Source: Caldilineales bacterium
Lineage (GTDB): Bacteria > Chloroflexota > Anaerolineae > J102
Direction of reading: 5' to 3'
DNA length: 64,000 bases
Assembly (NCBI GenBank): GCA_024102915.1
Contig: JAGFJG010000157.1
Location: forward strand, 1 to 64,000
The notes below the pieces were generated by a model, which made no database searches, had not been told where the DNA came from, and worked only from the letters and a program-made list of their open reading frames with translations. The translations under genes were made by a program, and so were the position numbers. Shown in pieces: positions 3,101 to 28,864 of this stretch. The stretch's first letter is position 1. Each line of letters begins with the position of its first letter.

Positions 3101-4408
3101 CTATGGCAACCAATCGTAGCTTCCATTCCATAGGACGTTTTGCAGCGCCGGATCGGTCTGATTTGGCAGCGAAATTCGCTCGACCACCAATTCAGTTTCG
3201 CCAGTCGCCAACGACAGCAACCACAGTGAAGCTTGGCCCTCGCCGTCGATGCGAGCAAAGAGGATTTTGCGGCCATCCACCGACCATTCCGGGCGCTCGT
3301 CCCGAAAAGCGGGGTCATTGGTCGCAGGTTGGGGGTTGGCCTCGCCCGACGTATCGGTAATCCAGATGCGGCGCTGGCTGAGCGCCGCTTCTCCCTCTTC
3401 GATTTCAGTCGCAGCAGAATCCGGCATGCCGCTGTAGGCGATGCGCGAGCCGTCGGGCGACCACGCCGGGTGGATGGCGGCCTGGTCGGATGGGGTCAGA
3501 CGCCGATCAGGAATGGCGATGGCCTTGTCGGTCCAGGGCGGGCCAGCGCCCTGGGTGGCCGCAACCATATCTCCCCGGCCTGAGTCCGTATTTGGCGGAG
3601 CGGTCGCGATGTCGTTGGCGAACCACCACGACACGTCTTCGATAGTTATCGGCGGCTCATCGCCTGGCGGTTGTGGTTGCTCGACCGGCAGCGTTCGCAG
3701 ATCGATGGTATCGGGCAGGAAGGAGTCGATCAGCCGGGGGCCGTACCAAAAGAGCAAACCTGCGCCCTGCGGCAGCCAGCCAGCAATGTTCAGCGTGGGT
3801 TCTGTGGCCGGGCTTCCGCCTTCCAAAAGCGTGACCGGTTCACCTCCATCGGCGCGGCGCATCCGGATCGTCTGCCGGGCTTCACCATTCTCTGGAAATG
3901 CCAACCACGTATAAGCAATCCACTCTCCGGTCGGGTTCCAGAATGGCGCACCGGGCATGCCTTCGATCATCGGCGGTTCCAGCGTCAGGGTCTCGGCGCT
4001 GCCCGGTGTGATGATCTTCATGTGGAGAATGCCAGAGCCGATGAGCGCCGCCAATCTATCCCCCACCGGCGACCAGGCATAGGCATTGGCAGGTGCGCCA
4101 TTCTCGACTGCCCAGGCATTTTTCTCGGTCAGCGAATACAACCAGACCTGGCTATCCAACTTGCGGAAGGCCAACCACTGGCCGGTGGGAGACCAGCGCG
4201 GTTCTGCATTTGCGCCGTCATACGTGATGCGTAGTGGTTCGCCATCCGGCAGGCGCTTAATCCAGATGTCGCCGTCGAGCACGTAGGCGACCACGCCCTG
4301 ATCGCCAGCAATCTCAGCATCGCCCCTATCGATTGGCGGTTGAAAGTACGCGCAGTTGGCAATCAATAAAACGGCCAAACCACAAATTAGCAGAGTAATA
4401 GGTCTCAT
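3101..4408 (-). CDS. TolB-like (PD40) beta-propeller lipoprotein
   Basis: A 435-residue protein. It starts with a lipoprotein signal peptide (hydrophobic residues 4-18 and a lipobox LIANC with Cys19), so it is predicted to be anchored to the outer face of the membrane. The rest contains repeated PD40/TolB-type blades, recognisable by recurring 'EPRWSPTGQWLAF', 'GAPFWNPTGEWIAY', 'HPAWSPDGSRIAYSG' and 'ERPEWSVDGRKILFA' strings at roughly 80-100 residue spacing. Such propellers are interaction or scaffold domains; no enzyme motif is visible. It is the likely first gene of a two-gene unit with the membrane protein downstream. Function unknown. Confidence 0.85.
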   Translation of the reverse strand: MRPITLLICGLAVLLIANCAYFQPPIDRGDAEIAGDQGVVAYVLDGDIWIKRLPDGEPLRITYDGANAEPRWSPTGQWLAFRKLDSQVWLYSLTEKNAWAVENGAPANAYAWSPVGDRLAALIGSGILHMKIITPGSAETLTLEPPMIEGMPGAPFWNPTGEWIAYTWLAFPENGEARQTIRMRRADGGEPVTLLEGGSPATEPTLNIAGWLPQGAGLLFWYGPRLIDSFLPDTIDLRTLPVEQPQPPGDEPPITIEDVSWWFANDIATAPPNTDSGRGDMVAATQGAGPPWTDKAIAIPDRRLTPSDQAAIHPAWSPDGSRIAYSGMPDSAATEIEEGEAALSQRRIWITDTSGEANPQPATNDPAFRDERPEWSVDGRKILFARIDGEGQASLWLLSLATGETELVVERISLPNQTDPALQNVLWNGSYDWLP

Positions 4409-4494
4409 TTGATACGTTCACAGCGTGATCTGCGTTACCAGTCGAGCGACACATCTTCCATCATAGCCAAAGTGTCTCTCAAAACGTGCCAAAC

Positions 4495-4527
4495 AAAAAA
4501 CCCGACAGCTTTTGACAGACAATCGGG
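4495..4527 (-). terminator. Intrinsic terminator after mqnA
   Basis: On the minus strand, downstream of the mqnA stop, CCCGA and TCGGG arms (plus one possible wobble pair) enclose a loop of about 17 bases. They are followed directly by a run of six T. The short stem makes this a moderate rather than strong call. Confidence 0.6.
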
Positions 4528-4552
4528 CAGGGGATGGGTGAAGTTTCGAGCG

Positions 4553-5536
4553 TTATGCAGTGATGGGATTAAAGCGAACCACGTCCGCCGGCTCGATGCC
4601 CTGGAAGAGTTGGCGCATCCCCTCTTGCGGATGCCAGCATTGCAAACCTTCGGGCTTGAACCCCGGCAGAGCCAGGAGAAAGTATGTGAGCAGACCGGCG
4701 CGGTCGCGCGGTCGCAAATCATAGCGCAGGTCGTGCAGATATTTGGTGAGCACGCCAACGGGCAGGCCCAGGCGGGGTGCGTAAGCTCGGGCGATTTCGG
4801 GGATGTGGGCGAGGCCGTCGGCTTTGCTCTCGTACAGTGCGGGAACGATGTCCAGTTCGGCGATAGCGGGCAAGGCTGCGCGGCGGGCGGCCCACACCGC
4901 GAACACGAAGGGCAGCCCCGTCCATTTCAGCCATTCGTCGCCCAGATCGAAAGCATAGGGCTGACCCCGACCGGGTATCTCACGACGATGGGCTGATTCG
5001 ACCAGGGCATCGTCGCCAATGAGCAGCGCGGCGGAAGCGCGGCGCAACATCTGGCCCAGGTCTTGCGGCTCGACCGAATAGCGCGGGGTAACCTGCCAGA
5101 AGTGGCGAGCAAGGATTTTGACTAATTCGACCGACGTGGCCGATTCGTCGGAGAGTGCGATGCGTACGTCATCCAACTCGCGCGGGTCGGCCATCCAACT
5201 GAACAACAATACAGTCTTGACCGCGCCTACAGTGGCGATGGAGAGATCGGGCAGAATGGCGACCTGATCGGCCAGCTCTGCGGCGGTAATGCAACTGACC
5301 GGGGCCAGGTCGATCTCGCCGGCAGCCAGCGCCCGGTTGAGTTCGGTGGGCACGCCGCGCAGGAATCTCACCGGTTTTCCGGCCAATCGCTCCTGCAGGC
5401 GGTAATACTGCGGCTCGACGTTGAGGTAGTCGATGATGCCGATTCTTAGGTTATGGGTTCCGGGTTCCGGGTTCTGCGGCTGGCGTTCCGCGTTCCGAGT
5501 TCCTGGTTCCGCAGGGAGTTGGTCGAATGTTGTCAT
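4553..5536 (-). CDS. mqnA: Chorismate dehydratase MqnA
   Basis: MqnA dehydrates chorismate to 3-enolpyruvyl-benzoate, the first step of the futalosine route to menaquinone. The core begins LRIGIIDYLNVEPQYYRL (about residue 30), typical of MqnA, and continues with the periplasmic-binding-protein-like fold (FLRGVPTELNRALAAGEIDLAPVS and IALSDESATSVELVKIL regions). Length 327 residues against about 280 in the family. The excess is an N-terminal extension whose residues 9-29 (EPGTRNA, ERQPQNP, EPGTHNL) are encoded by a degenerate heptanucleotide array (5451-5513). ATG 5536 overlaps the stop of the upstream four-helix-bundle gene as ATGA, suggesting translational coupling. A start nearer residue 30 cannot be excluded, but no in-frame ATG lies there. 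Confidence 0.93.
   Translation of the reverse strand: MTTFDQLPAEPGTRNAERQPQNPEPGTHNLRIGIIDYLNVEPQYYRLQERLAGKPVRFLRGVPTELNRALAAGEIDLAPVSCITAAELADQVAILPDLSIATVGAVKTVLLFSWMADPRELDDVRIALSDESATSVELVKILARHFWQVTPRYSVEPQDLGQMLRRASAALLIGDDALVESAHRREIPGRGQPYAFDLGDEWLKWTGLPFVFAVWAARRAALPAIAELDIVPALYESKADGLAHIPEIARAYAPRLGLPVGVLTKYLHDLRYDLRPRDRAGLLTYFLLALPGFKPEGLQCWHPQEGMRQLFQGIEPADVVRFNPITA
5451..5513 (+). repeat. Degenerate heptad array, arm A of module 1
   Basis: Nine in-phase 7-base units read on the + strand, mostly TTCCGGG / TTCCGCG / TTCCGAG (exact at 5458-5471; two units, 5451-5457 and 5479-5485, are weak). The 63 bases equal 21 codons, so the array stays open in the mqnA frame. Its complement is found at 5937-5971 on the other side of the four-helix-bundle gene. 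Confidence 0.88.
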
Positions 5537-5913
5537 AAGGAAGGGTTATGATTGTCGAGTACGAAACGGCGAAAACCGCCGATCATTGCTTTAGTTTTTT
5601 CGGCTTGCTGATAAATGGTTCGAAAATTCGTCTCGGAAATGTGACCAACATCAACCGCAACATAGAGCAAAGACTGAACTTCCAGAGCTGAGCGGCGGGC
5701 GATCTCAAGGAATCGCGCAAATTCGACGTTAGACGAGTTCCCAAAACCCTCGGCAATATTTGTCATCGTGGAGACAGCAGCACGCTGCATTTGATCACGT
5801 AGACCAAAATCACGCGCCAAACTGCCATCGGCGCAAAGCGCGTACATCTGTTTCGTCAGTTCGCGGGCTTCTTGCCAGGCATGAATCTCCTCAAATCTAC
5901 GAATCCCGGCCAT
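5533..5913 (-). CDS. Four-helix-bundle protein (S23/IVP family), module 1
   Basis: A 126-residue protein of the four-helix-bundle family first seen in 23S rRNA intervening sequences (PF05635/TIGR02436 type, distantly related to Avd of diversity-generating retroelements). Diagnostic features are the FEEIHAWQEARELTKQMY start, the DQMQRAAVSTMTNIAEGFG block (residues about 40-60; the classic 'RAA.SI..NIAEG' signature) and SNVEFARFLEIARRSALEV. Molecular function is unknown; Avd homologues bind RNA and reverse transcriptase. It lies between mqnE and mqnA and splits a metabolic operon. Inverted heptad arrays flank it, and its stop overlaps the mqnA start. No reverse transcriptase or template repeat is present. 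Confidence 0.9.
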   Translation of the reverse strand: MAGIRRFEEIHAWQEARELTKQMYALCADGSLARDFGLRDQMQRAAVSTMTNIAEGFGNSSNVEFARFLEIARRSALEVQSLLYVAVDVGHISETNFRTIYQQAEKTKAMIGGFRRFVLDNHNPSL

Positions 5914-5936
5914 TTAACCTCTTGTACACGTTATGC

Positions 5937-5971
5937 CTTTCACGGAACGCAGAACTCGGAACCCGGAACAC
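5937..5971 (+). repeat. Degenerate heptad array, arm B of module 1
   Basis: Four clear heptads on the + strand (GGAACGC, AGAACTC, GGAACCC, GGAACAC; 5944-5971) preceded by one weak unit. The consensus GGAACNC is the reverse complement of the TTCCG-type units in arm A, so the two arms could pair around the enclosed gene. The array ends exactly at the mqnE stop codon. Confidence 0.85.
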
Positions 5972-7170
5972 TAATTCAACTCGATATGCGTGATCTTGAC
6001 CTCGCCGCGTCGGGTTTTGCGGCTGTCGGGCGCGTAGGTTTCGATGGGCTGGTCGTAGATTTCGATCACGTTGTAGAGGGTGTCGCGCTCGACCGGGGTT
6101 TTACCCACGGCTTTGATCAGGCGCAGGAGGTCGAATTTGTCGAGTTGCTCCTCGGTGGTGGCCCCGGCGTCGTGATAGATTTTCTCCTCGACCACCGTGC
6201 CGTCGATGTCGTCCGCGCCGAAGTGCAGGGCAAGCTGGGCGATGGGCGGGGTCAGCATGATCCAATAAGCCTTGACATGCGGGAAGTTGTCGAGGAGGAT
6301 GCGGCTGACGGCGATGGTCTTGAGCGTGTCGTGGGCGGTCGTCCAATCGAGTCGGCGGCCCAGGTTGTTGTTTTCGGGGTGATAGCGCAGGGGGATGAAG
6401 GTGTTGAACCCGCCCGACCGATCCTGTTGTTCTCTCAGGCGGATGAGGTGATCCACGCGGTGTTCGTAGCTCTCGATGTGGCCGTAGAGCATGGTGGCGT
6501 TGGTGTGCAAGCCCAAGTCGTGGGCGATGCCGTGGATCGCCAGCCAGGTGGCGGCGTCGGCTTTTTCCGGGCAGATTTTGTTGCGGATGTCGGGGTGGAA
6601 TATCTCAGCCCCGCCGCCGGGCATGGAACCCAACCCAGCCTCAATCAACTCCTCCAACACCGTGCGATGGTCCTTGCCGGTGAGTTGGGCGAAGAAGTCG
6701 ATTTCGACGCCGGTGAAGGCTTTGAGGTGCACCCAGGGGTATTCCTTTTTCAGCGCCCGCAGGATATCGACGTAATAGTCGAAGCCGAGGGTGGGATGCA
6801 GGCCGCCGACGATGTGAAATTCGGTCACGCGGTTGTGCACGTCCGGGCGGATGCGCTCGACGATCTGTTCCGGCGTCCAGGTGTAGGCGCCGGGCGTGTC
6901 TTCCTTGAATTTGGCGAACGAACAGAAATTGCAATGGAAGGCGCAGACGTTGGTGGGGTTGATGTGGCGATTCTGGTTGAAGTAGACGTATTTGTCGCCA
7001 TTGATGCGCGTATTCACCTGGTTGGCGAGTTGGCCGACGGTGAGCAGATCGTTGCTGCGGAACAGGCGCAGGCCGTCGTCGTAACTCAGGCGCTCACCGG
7101 CATCGACTTTGGCGACGATGTCGGAAAGGTCACTGGTCTGTGTGGCGGGGATGGGTAAAGTTTGAAGCAT
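5971..7170 (-). CDS. mqnE: Aminodeoxyfutalosine synthase MqnE
   Basis: Radical SAM enzyme that joins 3-enolpyruvyl-benzoate to S-adenosylmethionine to make aminofutalosine, the second step of the futalosine menaquinone pathway. The [4Fe-4S] CxxxCxxC motif is CAFHCNFC (residues 76-83 from the start used here), preceded by NPTNV, and LGSMPGGGAEIF follows near residue 190, both typical of the MqnE/MqnC/CofH group. With ATG 7170 it is 399 residues. An upstream ATG at 7206 adds 12 residues encoded by another heptad array (7178 onward), so I prefer the inner start; neither has a good ribosome site. It is in the same run as mqnC, the prenyltransferase and mqnA. Confidence 0.94.
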   Translation of the reverse strand: MLQTLPIPATQTSDLSDIVAKVDAGERLSYDDGLRLFRSNDLLTVGQLANQVNTRINGDKYVYFNQNRHINPTNVCAFHCNFCSFAKFKEDTPGAYTWTPEQIVERIRPDVHNRVTEFHIVGGLHPTLGFDYYVDILRALKKEYPWVHLKAFTGVEIDFFAQLTGKDHRTVLEELIEAGLGSMPGGGAEIFHPDIRNKICPEKADAATWLAIHGIAHDLGLHTNATMLYGHIESYEHRVDHLIRLREQQDRSGGFNTFIPLRYHPENNNLGRRLDWTTAHDTLKTIAVSRILLDNFPHVKAYWIMLTPPIAQLALHFGADDIDGTVVEEKIYHDAGATTEEQLDKFDLLRLIKAVGKTPVERDTLYNVIEIYDQPIETYAPDSRKTRRGEVKITHIELN

Positions 7171-7177
7171 GGCGGTA

Positions 7178-7271
7178 GGATATTGGGTATTGGAAGATTT
7201 GGGCATATTGAAGTGATGAGTGATGAAATAACACGTGTCGGATGACGCAAATTACCCCATTACTCCATCAC
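7178..7271 (+). repeat. Heptad-array inverted pairs between mqnE and ubiA-like gene
   Basis: Units GGATATT, GGGTATT, GGAAGAT (7178-7198) are followed by two GTGATGA units (7213-7226). Units ATTACCC, CATTACT, CCATCAC (7251-7271) form the complementary arm. The gap otherwise holds no gene, and the array runs into the stop codon of the downstream prenyltransferase reading frame. Confidence 0.65.
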
Positions 7272-8152
7272 AAGACAATCAGTCCCGCTAATGTCGCCAC
7301 GAGCGTAATCACGCTGATGTAACCGTTCATGGTGAAGAAGGCGAGGTTGACTTTGCTGAGGTCAGTGGGTTTGACAAGGGTGTGTTCATAGACGAGCAGC
7401 CCGGCCACGATCACTAAACCCAGCCAGTAAGGCCAGCCCAACCCGGCCACAATCCCCACCGCTGCCAGGAGGATGACGGTGAGGATATGGAAGATTTGGG
7501 CGAAGCGCAGGGCGGCGGGGATGCCGAAATGGGCGGGAACACTCTTGAGTCCTTCTCGGCGGTCGATCTCCACATCCTGGCAGGCGTAGATCAGATCGAA
7601 GCCGGCGATCCACACGGTCACGGCGGCCCACAGCAGCCAGGGGATGGGATCCGCCAGACTGCCGGTGACAGCGGCCCAGGCTCCGGCGGCGGCCGCGCCA
7701 TCCACCAGCCCCAGCCAGATATGGCAGAGCCAGGTAAAGCGCTTGGTGTAGGCGTAGCCCACCAGCCCGATCACCGCCAGCGGCGACAGCATGAGCACAA
7801 ATGTGTTCAATTGCCAGGCGGCGAAGAGCATCACCGCCAACGCCACGAATCCGGCCATCCACACGGATCGTTTGCTGATGCGGCCCGCCTGGATGGGGCG
7901 GTTGGCGGTGCGGGGGTTGCGGGCGTCGATCTCGGCGTCGATAGCGCGGTTGAAAGCCATAGCCGCCGTACGCGCCGCCGCCATTGCCACCGTGATCCAC
8001 ACGAACTGCGTGATCAGTGTCGGCCAATCGATAGGTGCAGCCAGCATGCCCGTCGTCCACCACGCCAGCAGCATGCCCAGATAGGCAAACGGCAGGGCGA
8101 AGATCGTGTGCTCGAATTTGATCATTTCGAGGAAGGTGCGAAGGCGGGACAT
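7268..8152 (-). CDS. UbiA-family polyprenyltransferase, probable menaquinone (MqnP) type
   Basis: Integral membrane prenyltransferase of the UbiA superfamily, predicted to attach the isoprenoid tail to the naphthoate precursor in menaquinone synthesis. Both Asp-rich substrate motifs are visible: NRAIDAEIDARNPRTANRP (near residue 65) and DLIYACQDVEIDRREGL (near 190), with about eight membrane segments between and after. From ATG 8152 it is 294 residues, a normal length. The ATG lies 13 bases after the mqnC stop. Its place among mqnC, mqnE and mqnA argues for the futalosine pathway enzyme rather than a 4-hydroxybenzoate or haem O enzyme, but the substrate is inferred. Confidence 0.88.
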   Translation of the reverse strand: MSRLRTFLEMIKFEHTIFALPFAYLGMLLAWWTTGMLAAPIDWPTLITQFVWITVAMAAARTAAMAFNRAIDAEIDARNPRTANRPIQAGRISKRSVWMAGFVALAVMLFAAWQLNTFVLMLSPLAVIGLVGYAYTKRFTWLCHIWLGLVDGAAAAGAWAAVTGSLADPIPWLLWAAVTVWIAGFDLIYACQDVEIDRREGLKSVPAHFGIPAALRFAQIFHILTVILLAAVGIVAGLGWPYWLGLVIVAGLLVYEHTLVKPTDLSKVNLAFFTMNGYISVITLVATLAGLIVL

Positions 8153-8165
8153 GGGAGGCGTGAGG

Positions 8166-9383
8166 TTACAAACTCGCCATCGGCAAAAAATTCGCCGCTG
8201 GCTCTTCCACACCGTTCAATCGTGTTGGAATGGAGACGGGAGCGAGTTCGGCGGCGGTCATCACCCGGTCGAATCTGCGGACGGTGTTGTAGCGGCTGTC
8301 GCGCTGCGCGGGCGTGAACCCAGCCTGCCGGATCTGCTCGTGCAGGCGATGCACGCTCATGCGCGGCTCCTGCTCGGTGAAAGCCGACGCCTGGCTGACC
8401 ACGTTTTCTTCGAGCATGGTGCTGCCGAAGTCGTTAGCCCCGGCGAAAAGCGCGCGGCGGGCGGTGTCCAGGCCCTGGGTGGGCCAGCTTGCCTGGAAAT
8501 TGGTGAAATTGTCGAGATAGATGCGGGCGAAGGCGTTGGTGTGCAGGTATTCGTCGTAGTCCGCCCCGTAGTTAGCGCGGTGGCGGCTGCGGCCCAGGCT
8601 GTTGGTGTGGCTGAGTTGCGCCGTCCACATGATGAAGGCGGTGAAGCCGTTGCCGTGCGCGGCCAGCGATTCATCCTGCAGCTCGCGCAGGCGAGTGAGG
8701 CTGGCGACACGCTGTTCCCAGGTCTCGTCGAAACCGATGACCATGGTGGCGCTGGTGACCATGCCCAGGCGTTGGGCGATGCGCATGGCGTGCAACCATG
8801 CTGCGGTCTTCGTCTTTTTGGGAGCGATGCGGGCACGCACGGCATCGTCCAGGATTTCCGCCCCGCCGCCGGGCAGACCATCCAGTCCCGCCCGATTGAG
8901 CCGTGCCAAAACCTGCTCCATACTCAACCCTTCCAACCCAGCGATGTTCTCGATCTCGGAGGGACTGAAGCAATCCAACTCGATTTCGGGGTACGTGGAC
9001 TTGAGGAAACGCAGCATATCCTCGTACCACTCGATGCGAAGATCGGGGTTGTGGCCGCCCTGCATGAGGATGCGCGTGCCGCCCCAGGCCAGCAATTCCT
9101 CCACGCGTTCGCCAATTTGGCGCTTGCTCTGCACGTACACTTCGGGATGACCGGGCACGCGATAGAACGAGCAGAACTGGCAGTCGGTGGTGCAGGCGTT
9201 GGTGTAGTTGATGTTGCGATCCACAAGATAGGTGACCACGCCCGGCTCGGTTTTTCGCAGACGCAAGTCGTGGGCGATCTCCATCAGGCGGTTGGGATCA
9301 GCGTGCTGGTAGAGTTCAAGCCCTTCGGCGGGAGTGAGACGAATGCCGTCGGCAGCTTTTTGGAGGAGGTCGGTGGGGTTCAT
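8166..9383 (-). CDS. mqnC: Cyclic dehypoxanthinylfutalosine synthase MqnC
   Basis: Radical SAM enzyme that cyclises dehypoxanthine futalosine in menaquinone synthesis. The cluster motif is CTTDCQFC (Cys64, Cys68, Cys71), followed by ILMQGGHNPDLRIEWY and LDGLPGGGAEIL (near residue 180), which fit MqnC better than MqnE. Length 405 residues, slightly longer than the usual 360-390. It is the first Mqn gene on this strand, with the prenyltransferase, mqnE and mqnA following. MqnB and MqnD are not in the window, so the pathway is incomplete here and must be finished elsewhere. Confidence 0.92.
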   Translation of the reverse strand: MNPTDLLQKAADGIRLTPAEGLELYQHADPNRLMEIAHDLRLRKTEPGVVTYLVDRNINYTNACTTDCQFCSFYRVPGHPEVYVQSKRQIGERVEELLAWGGTRILMQGGHNPDLRIEWYEDMLRFLKSTYPEIELDCFSPSEIENIAGLEGLSMEQVLARLNRAGLDGLPGGGAEILDDAVRARIAPKKTKTAAWLHAMRIAQRLGMVTSATMVIGFDETWEQRVASLTRLRELQDESLAAHGNGFTAFIMWTAQLSHTNSLGRSRHRANYGADYDEYLHTNAFARIYLDNFTNFQASWPTQGLDTARRALFAGANDFGSTMLEENVVSQASAFTEQEPRMSVHRLHEQIRQAGFTPAQRDSRYNTVRRFDRVMTAAELAPVSIPTRLNGVEEPAANFLPMASL

Positions 9384-9402
9384 TGGAAATAGTGGAGGAT
9401 GG

Positions 9403-9474
9403 TATTGGATATTTGGTATCGGGTATTGGGAGCGTATGCAATATCGAATATCAAATACCCAATATCAAATGGTG
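9403..9474 (+). repeat. Gene-less inverted heptad pair upstream of mqnC
   Basis: The left arm has TATTGGA, TATTTGG, TATCGGG, TATTGGG (9403-9430). A 9-base centre follows, then the right arm AATATCG, AATATCA, AATACCC, AATATCA (9440-9467). The right arm is approximately the reverse complement of the left. It looks like an empty version of the arrays that enclose the four-helix-bundle genes. Confidence 0.85.
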
Positions 9475-9504
9475 AGATGAGTGTGGGCAAATATGTCGGA
9501 CGCC

Positions 9505-9966
9505 CTAAGCAAAACCACCGGCGGAATCGCCAATGCCAGATTCGGCGCGGGCTTTGAGGGCGGCGTTCATCTCCTCGAAGCCGCGCCGGGTGTCCGCGCC
9601 GGTCCGGCCCAGAATCAGTGAAACCAGGAAGCCGTTGAATTCCTCGCGTTGGGTGAAAAGGGTGGTTTCCGGCGTTTTGGCCTGAAGTTCGAAGATGTGT
9701 TCACCGTCGAAGATGCCGGGGAAGAAAAGACTGCCGAGCCAGCGAAATTCTTCGAGGGGTTTGAGCTTGGTAACGGTGGGCTTGAAAGTCATCGTGCGGC
9801 TGCCGGAAGCGCCCAAAAGTACTTTGAGAGGAGCGCCAATCGCAAGCTTGCCTTCAATCGACCGCACGAAAGGGTTCCAGTCAGGATAGGCGGCGAAGTC
9901 TGTCAAAACCCGCCAGACATCCGCAACGGGGGCGTCAATCGTGATCTCGGTCCGCAGTTCTTTCAT
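9505..9966 (-). CDS. SRPBCC (START-like) domain protein
   Basis: A 153-residue single-domain protein of the SRPBCC/Bet v1-like superfamily. It opens MKELRTEITIDAPVADVWRVLTDFAAYPDWNPFV, the standard first strand and helix, and has FRWLGSLFFPGIFDGEHIFEL in the middle, as in polyketide-cyclase/dehydrase-like members. It should have a hydrophobic ligand pocket; ligand unknown. ATG 9966 overlaps the stop of the upstream DUF697-like gene as ATGA, so the two are translationally coupled. Confidence 0.88.
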   Translation of the reverse strand: MKELRTEITIDAPVADVWRVLTDFAAYPDWNPFVRSIEGKLAIGAPLKVLLGASGSRTMTFKPTVTKLKPLEEFRWLGSLFFPGIFDGEHIFELQAKTPETTLFTQREEFNGFLVSLILGRTGADTRRGFEEMNAALKARAESGIGDSAGGFA

Positions 9967-11126
9967 GTTAGCGCGTTCTCCGGTTCGATGGTGGGAGTCA
10001 GATCGTGTTCGGTGAGGTCATACCCGCAACTGGAACAAAACTGGTCGCGTTTGCGCAGACGCTTCGAGCACTGCGGACAACGCCGGGCGGTTCGACGTGG
10101 GAGGGCGGGGCTGGGCAGCTTTGGTCGGGGCAGGCTGGGTCGCTCTTTGGGCAGATGCGCAGCCGCCCAATCCCGGCCTTCAACCAGCGCCTCGCGATAA
10201 AGCGCCTGCATACGCTCGCCCGTCAATTCCTCGCCATGCGCATACCAGGCGAAGGCCACCTTGCCCACGACGTAAGTCCCGGCGTAGGCGATGGCGATCT
10301 TGGGGACGATGCCGATGCCGGGGATGAACCCGACCAGAGTGCGGGCCAGTTGTCGCCAGACAAATCCGGCCCCCAACACGCCCGCAATCGGCGCAATCAT
10401 CTCCTGGATGCCGGAATTGTGTCCCAATGCCAGCGCCAGTTTGTAGGTCAGCAAGGCTTGATTCTTGCTGAGGATGATCATGTCGGCGGCGTTCAAAGGG
10501 ATGTTGAGGACGGGGACCATCTCGGCCACGCCGGTCGCCGCCGAATAGCTGGCGTTGGTCACGCAGGTATCCTTGATCAATTTGGCCGAGACGGCGGGAC
10601 ACAAGGCGGGCAGGAAATGCGCCAGGCGGATCATTTGGTCGGGCTGAGTGGAAAGAAGCGTGGGGATGAACTCGGCTTGTAATGGCGATTCGACCCGTGG
10701 GTCTATGGCGGTGAGGCGAGCGCCGCGCCACTGGTTCCATTGCAGGGTGGGCAATTGACCCTCGCCCGCGCCCAACATCTGTACGACCACCACGGTCTGG
10801 TCGGGGCGAATGCCGCGCAATCTAGCGAAAGCGGCCTGTTCCTTTTCCCAGACCCCATCCGCGGCCAGGACGATGAACGCCATTTCCGCTTTGGCGGCTT
10901 CGGCCAGTTCAGGTTCACTGGCAGGCAACGCATACAACCACATCGTTTGCGAGGCTGGCGTCTGCGTCTTCAGGTAGGGATTGGCGGCCAGTTCGTCTGC
11001 CAGCCAGTGCATGGCGGCAACGTCGCTGCCCAGGATCGCCACGCGCAACAGTTTCGCCGTCAGCCCGCGCAGTTCGGCGACATCGAATTCAGATAGGGTT
11101 GACCAGACGTTAGACAATGCAGACAT
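9963..11126 (-). CDS. DUF697-like protein with C-terminal zinc ribbon
   Basis: A 387-residue protein. Residues 20-160 resemble the core of a GTPase-like Rossmann domain (LRVAILGSD, FIVLAADGVWEKEQ, TVVVVQM) but lack a recognisable P-loop. Residues 180-310 contain the DUF697-type hydrophobic region found beside GTPases (AEMVPVLNIPLNAADMI, LVGFIPGIGIVPKIAIAYAGTYVVG). The C-terminus is a zinc ribbon with CPQC and CSSC pairs (residues about 350-372) after a Pro-rich linker. Family function is unclear. It is the first gene of a two-gene unit with the SRPBCC protein. Confidence 0.75.
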   Translation of the reverse strand: MSALSNVWSTLSEFDVAELRGLTAKLLRVAILGSDVAAMHWLADELAANPYLKTQTPASQTMWLYALPASEPELAEAAKAEMAFIVLAADGVWEKEQAAFARLRGIRPDQTVVVVQMLGAGEGQLPTLQWNQWRGARLTAIDPRVESPLQAEFIPTLLSTQPDQMIRLAHFLPALCPAVSAKLIKDTCVTNASYSAATGVAEMVPVLNIPLNAADMIILSKNQALLTYKLALALGHNSGIQEMIAPIAGVLGAGFVWRQLARTLVGFIPGIGIVPKIAIAYAGTYVVGKVAFAWYAHGEELTGERMQALYREALVEGRDWAAAHLPKERPSLPRPKLPSPALPRRTARRCPQCSKRLRKRDQFCSSCGYDLTEHDLTPTIEPENALT

Positions 11127-11296: not shown

Positions 11297-13117
11297 TTAC
11301 TCGTACTGAATACGGCCAATCGTCAAAAAGTCGCCGTCAGCGGACGGGCTGATGGGCAGCCAGTCGCCGCGGAAAGGACGCACGCCCAGCAACACGGTGA
11401 ACTCGCCGCTGCTGGCCGGGTCTGGTTCCAGCAGGTAGGGATCGGCGATGATTTCGCCCGGCTGCCAGCGGTCGGTAGCGTATCGCCCCTGGGCGGGGCT
11501 GTGATCCCATTCAGCGGCCAGCCAGCCGTCCTGATGGACGAGCCGAACGACCGGGCGCAGATCAGCAGCCAGGGGTTGGCTCGCCTGCCAGAGCAGGGTG
11601 ATGGGGATCGATTCGCCCTGTTTCAGGGGCGCAGGTGGCAGTTCGACAGAGATCAAATTCAGGCTGTCGCCGAAAGTGGCTCGCTGCTCGGCGGCTACGG
11701 TTCCGGGCGGGAACGCGGGTGCGGGCGGGGCGAAAGCCGGGCGCAGCGCCAACAGCAAGGCCAGCAACCCCGCCAGTCCGGCCAAAGCGATAAACCCGGC
11801 CGTCAATCTGGCCCAACCGATGCGACCTCGTCCCACCCATTCGGCGAACCCGGCCACGCCCACGCCCACCCACACGGCGATGGCGGCGATGGCGGGCCAC
11901 ATCAATCGCGCCTGATCCGTACCCAGCGCCACCGTGGAATATTGCACGATAGAGGCGAGCACAAGCAGCGGAGCCAGGGCGAGGAGTAGGAGAAAGAACA
12001 GAGGGCGGTGATCAGTAGTCAGTGGTGACTGCTTACCGCTCACTGTCAATTGTTTACTGTTTACTGTCCCATCGTCCATCGTCCATCGTCTCAACGCATA
12101 CACAATGCCAATGACAGCCGCCAACACAAACACTCCCGCCAACACATACGCCCATCCCGGCAGCCACACCTGACCCACCGGCCCAAATCGCCCCCAGAAA
12201 TAGCTGTAAAGTCCTTTCGCCAGCCACACCAGATCGGCAGCGGTGAGCGAAGCCAGGCGTTCGTCCACGGTCTGACGCACCAGTTCCCAGGCCAGGGGCG
12301 AGTTGTAGAGTTGCCAGTTGCGCAGCAGCCAGGGCGAAGCGATCAACAGGCCGAGCAACCAGACAAACAGGGCATAGCCCAACCCTTGCAGCCAGGCCCG
12401 AACGTCGTGTCGCTGCGGCCACATCGCTCCGGCAATAGCGATGGCGACCAGCGGCCACAAAGCCAGCGTGCCCACCTTCGATAGCAGCCCCAACCCCAAC
12501 ACGATGCCCAACCCGACCAGTCGCGCCCAACCGATGCCGCGCCAGATGATGCGAGCCATGAACAGCAAGACCAGCGCCCCGAACGCGCCCGCGGCATTGT
12601 CGTTGTTCATCGCCCCACTGATGTAAAGGAAGCCGGGCAGACCCATCAGAAACGCGGCTGCGATCAGGCCGATTTCCGGGCGTTTGGGGAAACACTCGCG
12701 ACCGAGTCGCCACGTCGCCCACAGCGTCACCGCGCCCAGGGCGACCGAAAACAGCCGGGCCAGGTGCAGGGCCAGCGCTCCGTCGCGCCAGGGCCACGAT
12801 TCCAGGGTGGTGTGAATGAAGAAGTTCGGGGGTGCGTCCGTGCCGAGGGGGAAGGCGTCGGGGTTGGCGCGCAGGAAATCGAAATCCATGCCCGTCCATC
12901 CCGCCAGCGCCGCCACAGCCGCGTGATAAAGCGGCGGATGTTTGCTCTGCGTGACCGCGGGGCCGACCGGCAGCGCCCGATTCTGGGCCAGATAGCGGGC
13001 ATAGGCGTAGTGGTCGGCCTCGTCTGGGGCTTCACCCAAAGGTTGGGCCACCGAGTAAGCCGTAGCCAGCACGAGATACAGGGCCAAGATGATCAAAAAG
13101 AAGCGACGTGCCAGCAT
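11297..13117 (-). CDS. GT39-like multi-pass membrane glycosyltransferase candidate
   Basis: A 606-residue membrane protein. The first lumenal loop has APDEADHYAYARYLAQ (near residue 32), the acidic motif expected after the first helix of GT-C enzymes such as PMT/ArnT relatives. About ten membrane segments follow, then a C-terminal soluble domain (residues about 460-606) containing RWQPGEIIADPYLL, also present in the two upstream paralogues. Donor and acceptor are unknown. Residues about 343-371 (WTMDDGTVNSKQLTVSG and on) are encoded by a heptanucleotide array and lie in a loop between helices. The ATG overlaps the preceding stop by one base (TGATG). Last gene of a three-gene unit. Confidence 0.82.
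   Translation of the reverse strand: MLARRFFLIILALYLVLATAYSVAQPLGEAPDEADHYAYARYLAQNRALPVGPAVTQSKHPPLYHAAVAALAGWTGMDFDFLRANPDAFPLGTDAPPNFFIHTTLESWPWRDGALALHLARLFSVALGAVTLWATWRLGRECFPKRPEIGLIAAAFLMGLPGFLYISGAMNNDNAAGAFGALVLLFMARIIWRGIGWARLVGLGIVLGLGLLSKVGTLALWPLVAIAIAGAMWPQRHDVRAWLQGLGYALFVWLLGLLIASPWLLRNWQLYNSPLAWELVRQTVDERLASLTAADLVWLAKGLYSYFWGRFGPVGQVWLPGWAYVLAGVFVLAAVIGIVYALRRWTMDDGTVNSKQLTVSGKQSPLTTDHRPLFFLLLLALAPLLVLASIVQYSTVALGTDQARLMWPAIAAIAVWVGVGVAGFAEWVGRGRIGWARLTAGFIALAGLAGLLALLLALRPAFAPPAPAFPPGTVAAEQRATFGDSLNLISVELPPAPLKQGESIPITLLWQASQPLAADLRPVVRLVHQDGWLAAEWDHSPAQGRYATDRWQPGEIIADPYLLEPDPASSGEFTVLLGVRPFRGDWLPISPSADGDFLTIGRIQYE
12007..12090 (+). repeat. Twelve-unit heptad array inside a coding region
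   Basis: Twelve consecutive 7-base units in one phase. The first nine are degenerate (AGTAGTC, ACTGTCA, ACTGTTT types) and the last three are identical (CATCGTC at 12070-12090). Length 84 bases, equal to 28 codons, so the host reading frame on the minus strand is kept. Confidence 0.87.
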
Positions 13118-26813: not shown

Positions 26814-26862
26814 GTTGGTTGGTTTGGGATGGGAGGTCGGAGGACAGAGGTCGGAGGTCGCC
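26814..26862 (+). repeat. Degenerate heptad array, arm A of module 2
   Basis: Seven in-phase units, best in GGTCGGA (26835-26841 and 26849-26855), GGACAGA and GGTCGCC. It starts right after the trpS start region and ends at the stop codon (26864-26866) of the four-helix-bundle gene. The unit is complementary to the CTGACCT/CCTCGGA units of arm B. Confidence 0.85.
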
Positions 26863-26863
26863 G

Positions 26864-27247
26864 TCAGGCGTGTGATTTGATCAGGAATGGATCAGGTTTG
26901 TTGAGCATGGCTCCAATCATTGATCCGATGATGCGACATTCATTCGTGAGCCGCTTGTGATCATCACCAGACAAATAGGCACAGTCTTTGGCGAAATCGA
27001 GCCATGTATCAGTCTCAGAGTTTTCGCCATCAGCATCGGTCAGTTTATTGACAAAATGCGCCTCATAACGTCTTTTCGCCCATGCCTCGCGTAGATTAGA
27101 GCATACAGAACGAGAGGAGCGTCGGATCTGTCCAGTGAGCGCATACCTTTCCTCTGCAGGCCACCCCTGACTGATGTGATAAATTTCCATCGCGAGAGAG
27201 TATGCTTTTTGATACACCTGCAAATCTTTAGCTGAATTAATCTGCAT
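26864..27247 (-). CDS. Four-helix-bundle protein (S23/IVP family), module 2
   Basis: A 127-residue protein with the same fold as the gene at 5533-5913 but a diverged sequence. It has KDLQVYQKAYSLAMEIYHIS at the start, LTGQIRRSSRSVCSNLREAW (residues about 38-57, the position of the usual RAA.SI..NI.EG signature, here RSS.SVCSNLREA), and a C-terminal helix IIGSMIGAMLNKP. Function unknown. It lies between trpE and trpS, interrupting the trp operon, and is bracketed by inverted heptad arrays of a different sequence from those of module 1. The Ser-rich signature shows the two copies belong to different subfamilies, so this is not a recent duplication. Confidence 0.88.
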   Translation of the reverse strand: MQINSAKDLQVYQKAYSLAMEIYHISQGWPAEERYALTGQIRRSSRSVCSNLREAWAKRRYEAHFVNKLTDADGENSETDTWLDFAKDCAYLSGDDHKRLTNECRIIGSMIGAMLNKPDPFLIKSHA

Positions 27248-27250
27248 AGC

Positions 27251-27299
27251 GATATTCCTTCCGATCTCTGACCTCGGATTTCCGATCTCTGACCTCAGA
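27251..27299 (+). repeat. Degenerate heptad array, arm B of module 2
   Basis: Seven in-phase units including two copies of TCTCTGA (27265-27271, 27286-27292), CCTCGGA, TTTCCGA and CCTCAGA. The array starts four bases from the four-helix-bundle ATG and runs into the trpE stop codon (27295-27297). It is the inverted counterpart of arm A at 26814-26862. Confidence 0.85.
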
Positions 27300-28790: not shown

Positions 28791-28864
28791 GGTGAAGTGA
28801 AAAGTAATGAAGTAATGGAGTGGAGGAGTGTTGAACCTACTTCATCACTTCAATACTCCATTAC
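28791..28864 (+). repeat. Inverted 7-8-base array between T-box terminator and trpE
   Basis: GTAATGGAGT (28812-28821) and ACTCCATTAC (28855-28864) are an exact inverted pair, and GAAGTGA/TCACTTC (28794-28800 / 28845-28851) adds a second. The period is 7 to 8 bases (AGTAATGA, AGTAATGG, AGTGGAGG). In the trpE mRNA it would form a hairpin close to the trpE ribosome site. Confidence 0.75.

Follow-up and report, generated by a model that had tools for sequence, protein, structure and literature searches.

The four-helix-bundle (4HB) protein gene between mqnE and mqnA, together with the inverted repeat arrays on either side of it, is probably a minimal mobile element of ~520 bp that belongs to a widespread family and would act at the DNA level, through an oligomeric 4HB protein binding the element's own terminal repeats. 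It lies in the window, by which we mean the whole 64,000-nucleotide stretch of the Caldilineales contig JAGFJG010000157.1 analysed here. Its parts and immediate neighbours are as follows (5' and 3' arms are named in the sense of the 4HB gene):

4553–5536, minus strand: mqnA-like menaquinone biosynthesis gene (PF02621, profile match), downstream neighbour
5449–5970, ~520 bp: whole element (array, 4HB gene, inverted array) between mqnE and mqnA
5449–5511, no strand assigned: 3' arm, an inverted heptad array reading GGAACNN on the minus strand (repeat detection and self-comparison)
5453–5536, minus strand: putative element-encoded N-terminal extension of mqnA, ~28 residues, reading through the 3' arm (homology of relatives)
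5533–5536, minus strand: 4HB stop (TGA) and mqnA start (ATG) overlapping as ATGA, seen in the sequence
5533–5913, minus strand: 4HB protein gene, 126 aa (PF05635/TIGR02436, profile matches; PDB relatives 2gsc and 2rld)
5943–5970, no strand assigned: 5' arm, GTTCCGN heptads on the minus strand, including a one-base spacer at 5970 (repeat detection)
5971–7206, minus strand: mqnE, aminofutalosine synthase (TIGR03700, profile match), upstream neighbour

Read along the minus strand, mqnE is followed by the 5' arm (5970–5943), the 4HB gene (5913–5533), the 3' arm (5511–5449, inside the mqnA frame) and mqnA; complementary termini enclose one 4HB ORF. The gene matches PF05635 (E 1.7e-31, 109 bits, cut-off 33.8) and TIGR02436 (E 2.7e-29, 101.6 bits, cut-off 24). 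A preliminary description counted nine 7-base units in the left array; there are about nine, but they are imperfect and one is broken, Tandem Repeats Finder reporting 8.1 copies of period 7 at 5455–5511 with 73% matches and 7% indels, and our own detector an array at 5449–5510. The right array (5943–5969, period 7, 3.9 copies) is complementary to the left, as had been proposed: the arms are reverse-complementary over 27 nt at 85% and, in a second register, over 22 nt at 95%. It had also been placed exactly at the end of mqnE, and it stops one base before the mqnE stop codon (5973–5971, minus strand). Between the arms no transposase was found, the sole gene being that of the 126-aa four-helix-bundle protein, which has no known catalytic motif. 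The element does not lie in a 16S or 23S rRNA gene, and there is no Rfam match in 4000–10000.

The left array occupies the 5' end of mqnA and seems to lengthen its product, in agreement with the preliminary description. Homology of mqnA in relatives begins at about residue 19–30, most often 26–30, and thus the first ~28 residues are probably a local extension through the array, with the native start codon replaced by element sequence. Insertion between mqnE and mqnA would have displaced this codon; translation of mqnA now probably begins at the ATGA that overlaps the 4HB stop. Stop/start overlaps of the ATGA type occur in 7 of 91 loci only, and such coupling was rejected as a general feature of the elements.

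Mobility of the unit, arrays included, had been suggested earlier and agrees with relatives whose mqnE–mqnA junctions lack the element. The junction is short and free of arrays in two of them (L052 in G013 and L056 in G011) and nearly so in a third (L043 in G008), all at ~80–86% protein identity, and no 4HB gene was seen there in the 17 other genomes of the family in which mqnA was matched, some contigs ending at this point. The junction is a hot spot in the family, with unrelated toxin–antitoxin-like genes (BrnT/BrnA-like and HicB-like; L041, L053) in other genomes. At four further junctions (L044, L046, L049, L054) there are gene-less heptad or octad hairpins built from other units.

The layout recurs far beyond this site. 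Inverted periodic flanks were found at 91 of 115 4HB loci in at least 20 phyla, with period 7 at 63, period 8 at 21 and period 9 at 7; about a fifth of the loci had no arms at the thresholds used. A scan of species-level genomes supplied 80 loci, and Chloroflexota loci were added for the larger sets (109 and 115). Among the 80, inverted arrays had period 7 in 41, 8 in 20 and 9 in 9 (overlapping sets), and none had period 5, 6 or 10. Geometry-shifted controls (1300 nt) gave 1, 0 and 0 of 143 for periods 7, 8 and 9. The flanks of a locus pair with each other (87/109) but rarely with flanks swapped from other loci (16/327), and within the same genomes 4HB genes (25/33) differ from BrnT toxin genes (1/27). 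By record titles, the phyla include Chloroflexota, Cyanobacteria, Bacteroidetes, Planctomycetota, Acidobacteria, Nitrospirae, several former Deltaproteobacteria, Verrucomicrobia, Armatimonadetes, Parcubacteria and more. Across 21 genomes, with kinship ignored, the density of period-7 arrays correlates with 4HB genes per Mb (Spearman 0.86); at the control periods 5, 11 and 13 the correlation is not significant and at period 10 weakly so. Most loci come from metagenome-assembled genomes, as an assembly or detection artefact might predict, but the probability of this is negligible: the swap, shift and family controls are clean, and the artefact is already refuted by closed plasmids of cyanobacterial isolates, on which arrays flank the 4HB gene at 6/6 loci (five clearly inverted, one complex).

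The surroundings of the 4HB genes are diverse. On a plasmid of a Pseudanabaena isolate an array-flanked 4HB gene with complex arrays lies between cas6 and cas4, and on one of a Nostoc edaphicum isolate another lies antisense between the two ribonucleotide reductase genes (L369, L370). In two species of one genus an element directly follows the T-box terminator upstream of ileS (L360, L361, L367); at this site it is absent in a third species and replaced by different genes in others. In the window genome (G000), too, a T-box-like leader precedes a 4HB gene (L009). Carriage by phages was considered and rejected, a phage collection yielding no match. An rRNA-word search found no rRNA beside the studied loci.

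Between related 4HB genes in different genomic contexts that are themselves unrelated, DNA similarity spans arm, gene and arm and ends at or within the arms (L033/L038, L026/L028, L119/L130, L123/L130 and L089/L098). In L033/L038, for example, it covers 1422–1879 and 1434–1876, with arms at 1422–1893 and 1433–1876. The likeness of unrelated insertions thus reaches no further than the arrays, and these are the termini of the element. In the preliminary description, close relatives all carrying the gene with unrelated flanks would have told against the proposed unit. The outcome is otherwise, and informative: the flanking genes are indeed unrelated and the repeat unit changes between loci, but an inverted pair is present at each, in a version of its own. 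Presence at orthologous sites is patchy, and sister species may hold different genes at the same site. A clean presence/absence pair at >90% DNA identity was not found; G004, which came closest at the L017 site, was rejected as an empty site, as it retains a decayed piece of the 3' end of the 4HB gene together with another sequence.

Although unit sequences vary, array sequence and period evidently track the lineage of the encoded protein. Protein identity correlates with arm similarity (Mantel r 0.283, p 0.001), the mean arm similarity being 13.6 above 60% protein identity and ~5 below 40%. Of the pairs above 60% identity, 95% have a common period, compared with about half of the others, and on the 4HB protein tree the period changes 18 times versus 24.9 in shuffles (0/200 as low). 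The arms can nevertheless turn over completely: in the orthologous pair L107/L129, with flanks 78% identical, they have diverged to chance similarity and are still self-complementary.

The window genome contains ten PF05635 genes, and opposite-polarity arrays, with a unit that differs per locus, occur at every copy with both flanks assembled. These arrays were judged by eye and are clear in most cases, while L005, L006 and L010 fall under the detection threshold. The window itself holds a second element and gene-less hairpins:

9403–9470, no strand assigned: gene-less inverted heptad hairpin, GGTATTG / CAATATC, loop 4 nt
26832–26860, no strand assigned: second element, 3' arm, GGTCGGA type (repeat detection)
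26864–27247, minus strand: second element, 4HB gene, 127 aa; insertion shared with relatives G002 and G005
27260–27299, no strand assigned: second element, 5' arm (repeat detection)

Period-7 arrays number nine in the window versus none in a mononucleotide shuffle. For a wider view, 460 kb of the window genome, chosen without regard to 4HB genes, and ~1.6 Mb of relatives were sampled. The 460 kb contain 13 inverted period-7 pairs, namely ten gene-less hairpins (loops of 4–93 nt) and three gene-enclosing pairs (384–434 nt between arms), the latter all around 4HB genes. This distribution speaks against arrays occurring equally at random loci without inverted pairing, an objection foreseen in the preliminary description: solitary arrays and gene-less hairpins exist, but the only genes seen between inverted arrays in this genome were 4HB genes. 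Gene-less heptad or octad hairpins were recorded at the position listed above, at 28802–28864 of the window and at L060, L064, L065, L068, L069, L071, L072 and L079; the recurring unit types in the genome are few (GACGATG, AGTATTC, GGTATTG). A compound heptad array at 12012–12090 lies inside a long ORF (11297–13117, minus strand) and is translated in frame (DDGTVNSKQLTVSGKQSPLTTDHRPL). The GACGATG hairpins match the resident 4HB element L007 on contig 157 (scores 12–18). Overall, however, stray arrays of the genome resembled the arms of its own 4HB elements only slightly more than those of foreign ones (p 0.09), and an origin of stray arrays from resident elements, suggestive for GACGATG, is not significant.

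The abundance of such hairpins in this genome, and at the mqnE–mqnA junctions of relatives with other heptads, could mean that the arrays are host microsatellites and that 4HB genes landed in existing heptad hairpins. We regard this as highly improbable. Across genomes and phyla, repeat and period go with the 4HB protein; the sequence shared between elements takes in the arms and extends no further; and BrnT, another small mobile gene, is not found in such hairpins. Nor is there a significant trend for arms to match arrays of their own genome over those of protein kin.

A closer parallel is provided by the 23S rRNA intervening sequences (S23p/IVP ORF; Leptospira, Coxiella and others), which share with the 4HB elements the protein family, complementary ends, a single ORF, its sense orientation and patchiness, a likeness that the preliminary description had rightly drawn. 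In Coxiella, three GACAGAT heptamers with strain-variable copy number lie just before the S23p ORF, the ends are complementary and RNase III cleavage has been shown (PMC4990558). Unlike these sequences, 4HB elements stand in protein operons, both of their arms are tandem arrays of 7–9 nt units, and the unit varies by protein lineage. The intervening sequences look like the rRNA-located subset of 4HB elements.

The window element could also work at the RNA level, as the preliminary description allowed: the arms would pair in the transcript, RNase III would cut, the host mRNA would tolerate the break, and selection on RNA pairing would keep the arms alike. The Coxiella precedent speaks for this, as do a strong sense bias of the 4HB gene (68 of 75 co-directional neighbour pairs), which may arise because elements rely on the host operon to be expressed, and the predicted fold of the window transcript, in which the arms pair as the outermost helix. 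However, the stability of this fold is only modest (energy z -1.96 versus shuffles), and the arms pair poorly in some orthologues (L036, score 14). Moreover, selection on pairing of the sense transcript would favour G·U over A·C mismatches, whereas imperfect arm pairs contain 88 G·U and 122 A·C. With no excess of G·U, pairing in the mRNA is apparently not what keeps the arms alike, and a DNA-level cause is favoured; the RNA-level interpretation is unlikely.

The 4HB protein is under purifying selection, with dN/dS of 0.02–0.19 in pairs with unsaturated synonymous sites. The two arms are distinguishable: GT outweighs AC in the 5' arm at 83 of 91 loci and the reverse holds at 8, as scored by an orientation-blind detector. 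A GT-first unit fails as a universal rule for gene-less hairpins (15 versus 14), which include other families. The arrays were also considered as stop-free linkers that fuse the downstream gene; this was rejected, as stop triplets are similarly frequent in both arms and on both strands. As the 5' arm ends a median of 30 nt before the start codon and elements lie in operons, beside T-box leaders and inside cas operons (PF05635 genes in cas loci were noted in PMC3936711), the arrays might instead be a host regulatory device for 4HB expression (attenuator, mRNA stabiliser or mask of the ribosome-binding site), with the 4HB protein a domesticated regulator. This is improbable, since presence is patchy, neighbours are unrelated, sister species carry different genes at one and the same site, and a second protein family, unrelated to 4HB, shows this layout as well.

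For a mobile element acting on DNA, the proposed mechanism is that the oligomeric 4HB protein binds the element's own terminal arrays, with one repeat unit per subunit, and would thereby bring the two element ends together. The nearest solved relatives (2gsc, which is XCC0516, and 2rld) have five chains per entry and the arms a median of 4.9 units each, making one unit per subunit a natural reading. The ring protein TRAP offers an analogy for this arrangement. The title of a study cited in PMC10053308 gives Xcc0516 as five four-helix bundles. Copying may proceed via host replication, repair or a nuclease supplied in trans, a partner that is assumed because the 4HB fold has no known catalytic residues. 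The arms would stay alike by concerted evolution, through template switching between arms and/or selection for the sites of one protein.

The second family consists of GxxExxY genes (PF13366, PDDEXK_3), which have inverted short-period arrays at 21 of 26 loci in the same genomes (L295–L324, e.g., L310, G009:C254:523-870). The array types are CACGGAGA, CGCAGAGAA and ACACGGAT, with periods of 8–10. These elements resemble 4HB elements in layout, but the protein has an unrelated fold with the PD-(D/E)XK nuclease signature, and the units are 8–10 nt long with another consensus. One of them, in G009, occupies the exact site of a 4HB element in G004. Given their nuclease-type protein, GxxExxY elements are candidates for comparison on cutting and joining.

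Several known systems share part of this architecture. Avd, the accessory protein of diversity-generating retroelements (DGRs), is reported to be homologous to the 4HB family (PMC10053308) and to form the same pentamer of four-helix bundles as XCC0516. However, no template or variable repeats are seen here and the 4HB element has no room for a reverse transcriptase gene; the neighbours of the window 4HB gene within ~1.5 kb are mqnE and mqnA. Like insertion sequences and transposons, 4HB elements have inverted repeats that bound a homologous unit. REPIN/RAYT and MITE-type elements likewise have short inverted ends, an orientation-specific tagged 5' arm and gene-less units alongside gene-bearing ones, but 4HB elements carry no transposase, end in tandem arrays rather than a fixed palindrome, and show no conservation of end sequence across the family. 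The short tandemly repeated repetitive heptamers of cyanobacteria and the TAACTGA arrays of Beggiatoaceae (PMC4679880) are also heptanucleotide direct repeats, mostly intergenic, unexplained and patchy. They are solitary, with no linked gene described, whereas 4HB arrays go with a protein. In the open-access literature no description was found of inverted arrays around PF05635 or PF13366 genes. What is already known is a 4HB gene between complementary ends, in rRNA intervening sequences; what goes beyond this is the array-defined, protein-specific ends and the second family.

We tentatively propose, at somewhat less than even confidence, an unrecognised superfamily in which one small gene (4HB or GxxExxY so far) lies between inverted arrays of 7–10 nt units. 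Its ends would be defined by periodicity and a family motif, an oligomer would read one unit per subunit, and protein and ends would coevolve. Its products would then be the rRNA intervening sequences and, in cyanobacteria, Chloroflexota and others, much of the heptamer-array DNA.

The findings suggest that a class of very small mobile elements has been overlooked. Annotations of PF05635 genes commonly read "four helix bundle protein" or "S23 ribosomal protein" and give no function beyond rRNA, and heptamer arrays have for decades been recorded but not explained. Should gene and array be the two halves of a single mobile system, both questions become testable at the bench, with a protein of ~120 residues and arrays of 35–60 nt. 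Such a system would also explain the 4HB genes in cas, menaquinone and aminoacyl-tRNA synthetase operons, for which operon-related roles have been suspected, and would represent a further route to element ends, one that withstands complete sequence turnover.
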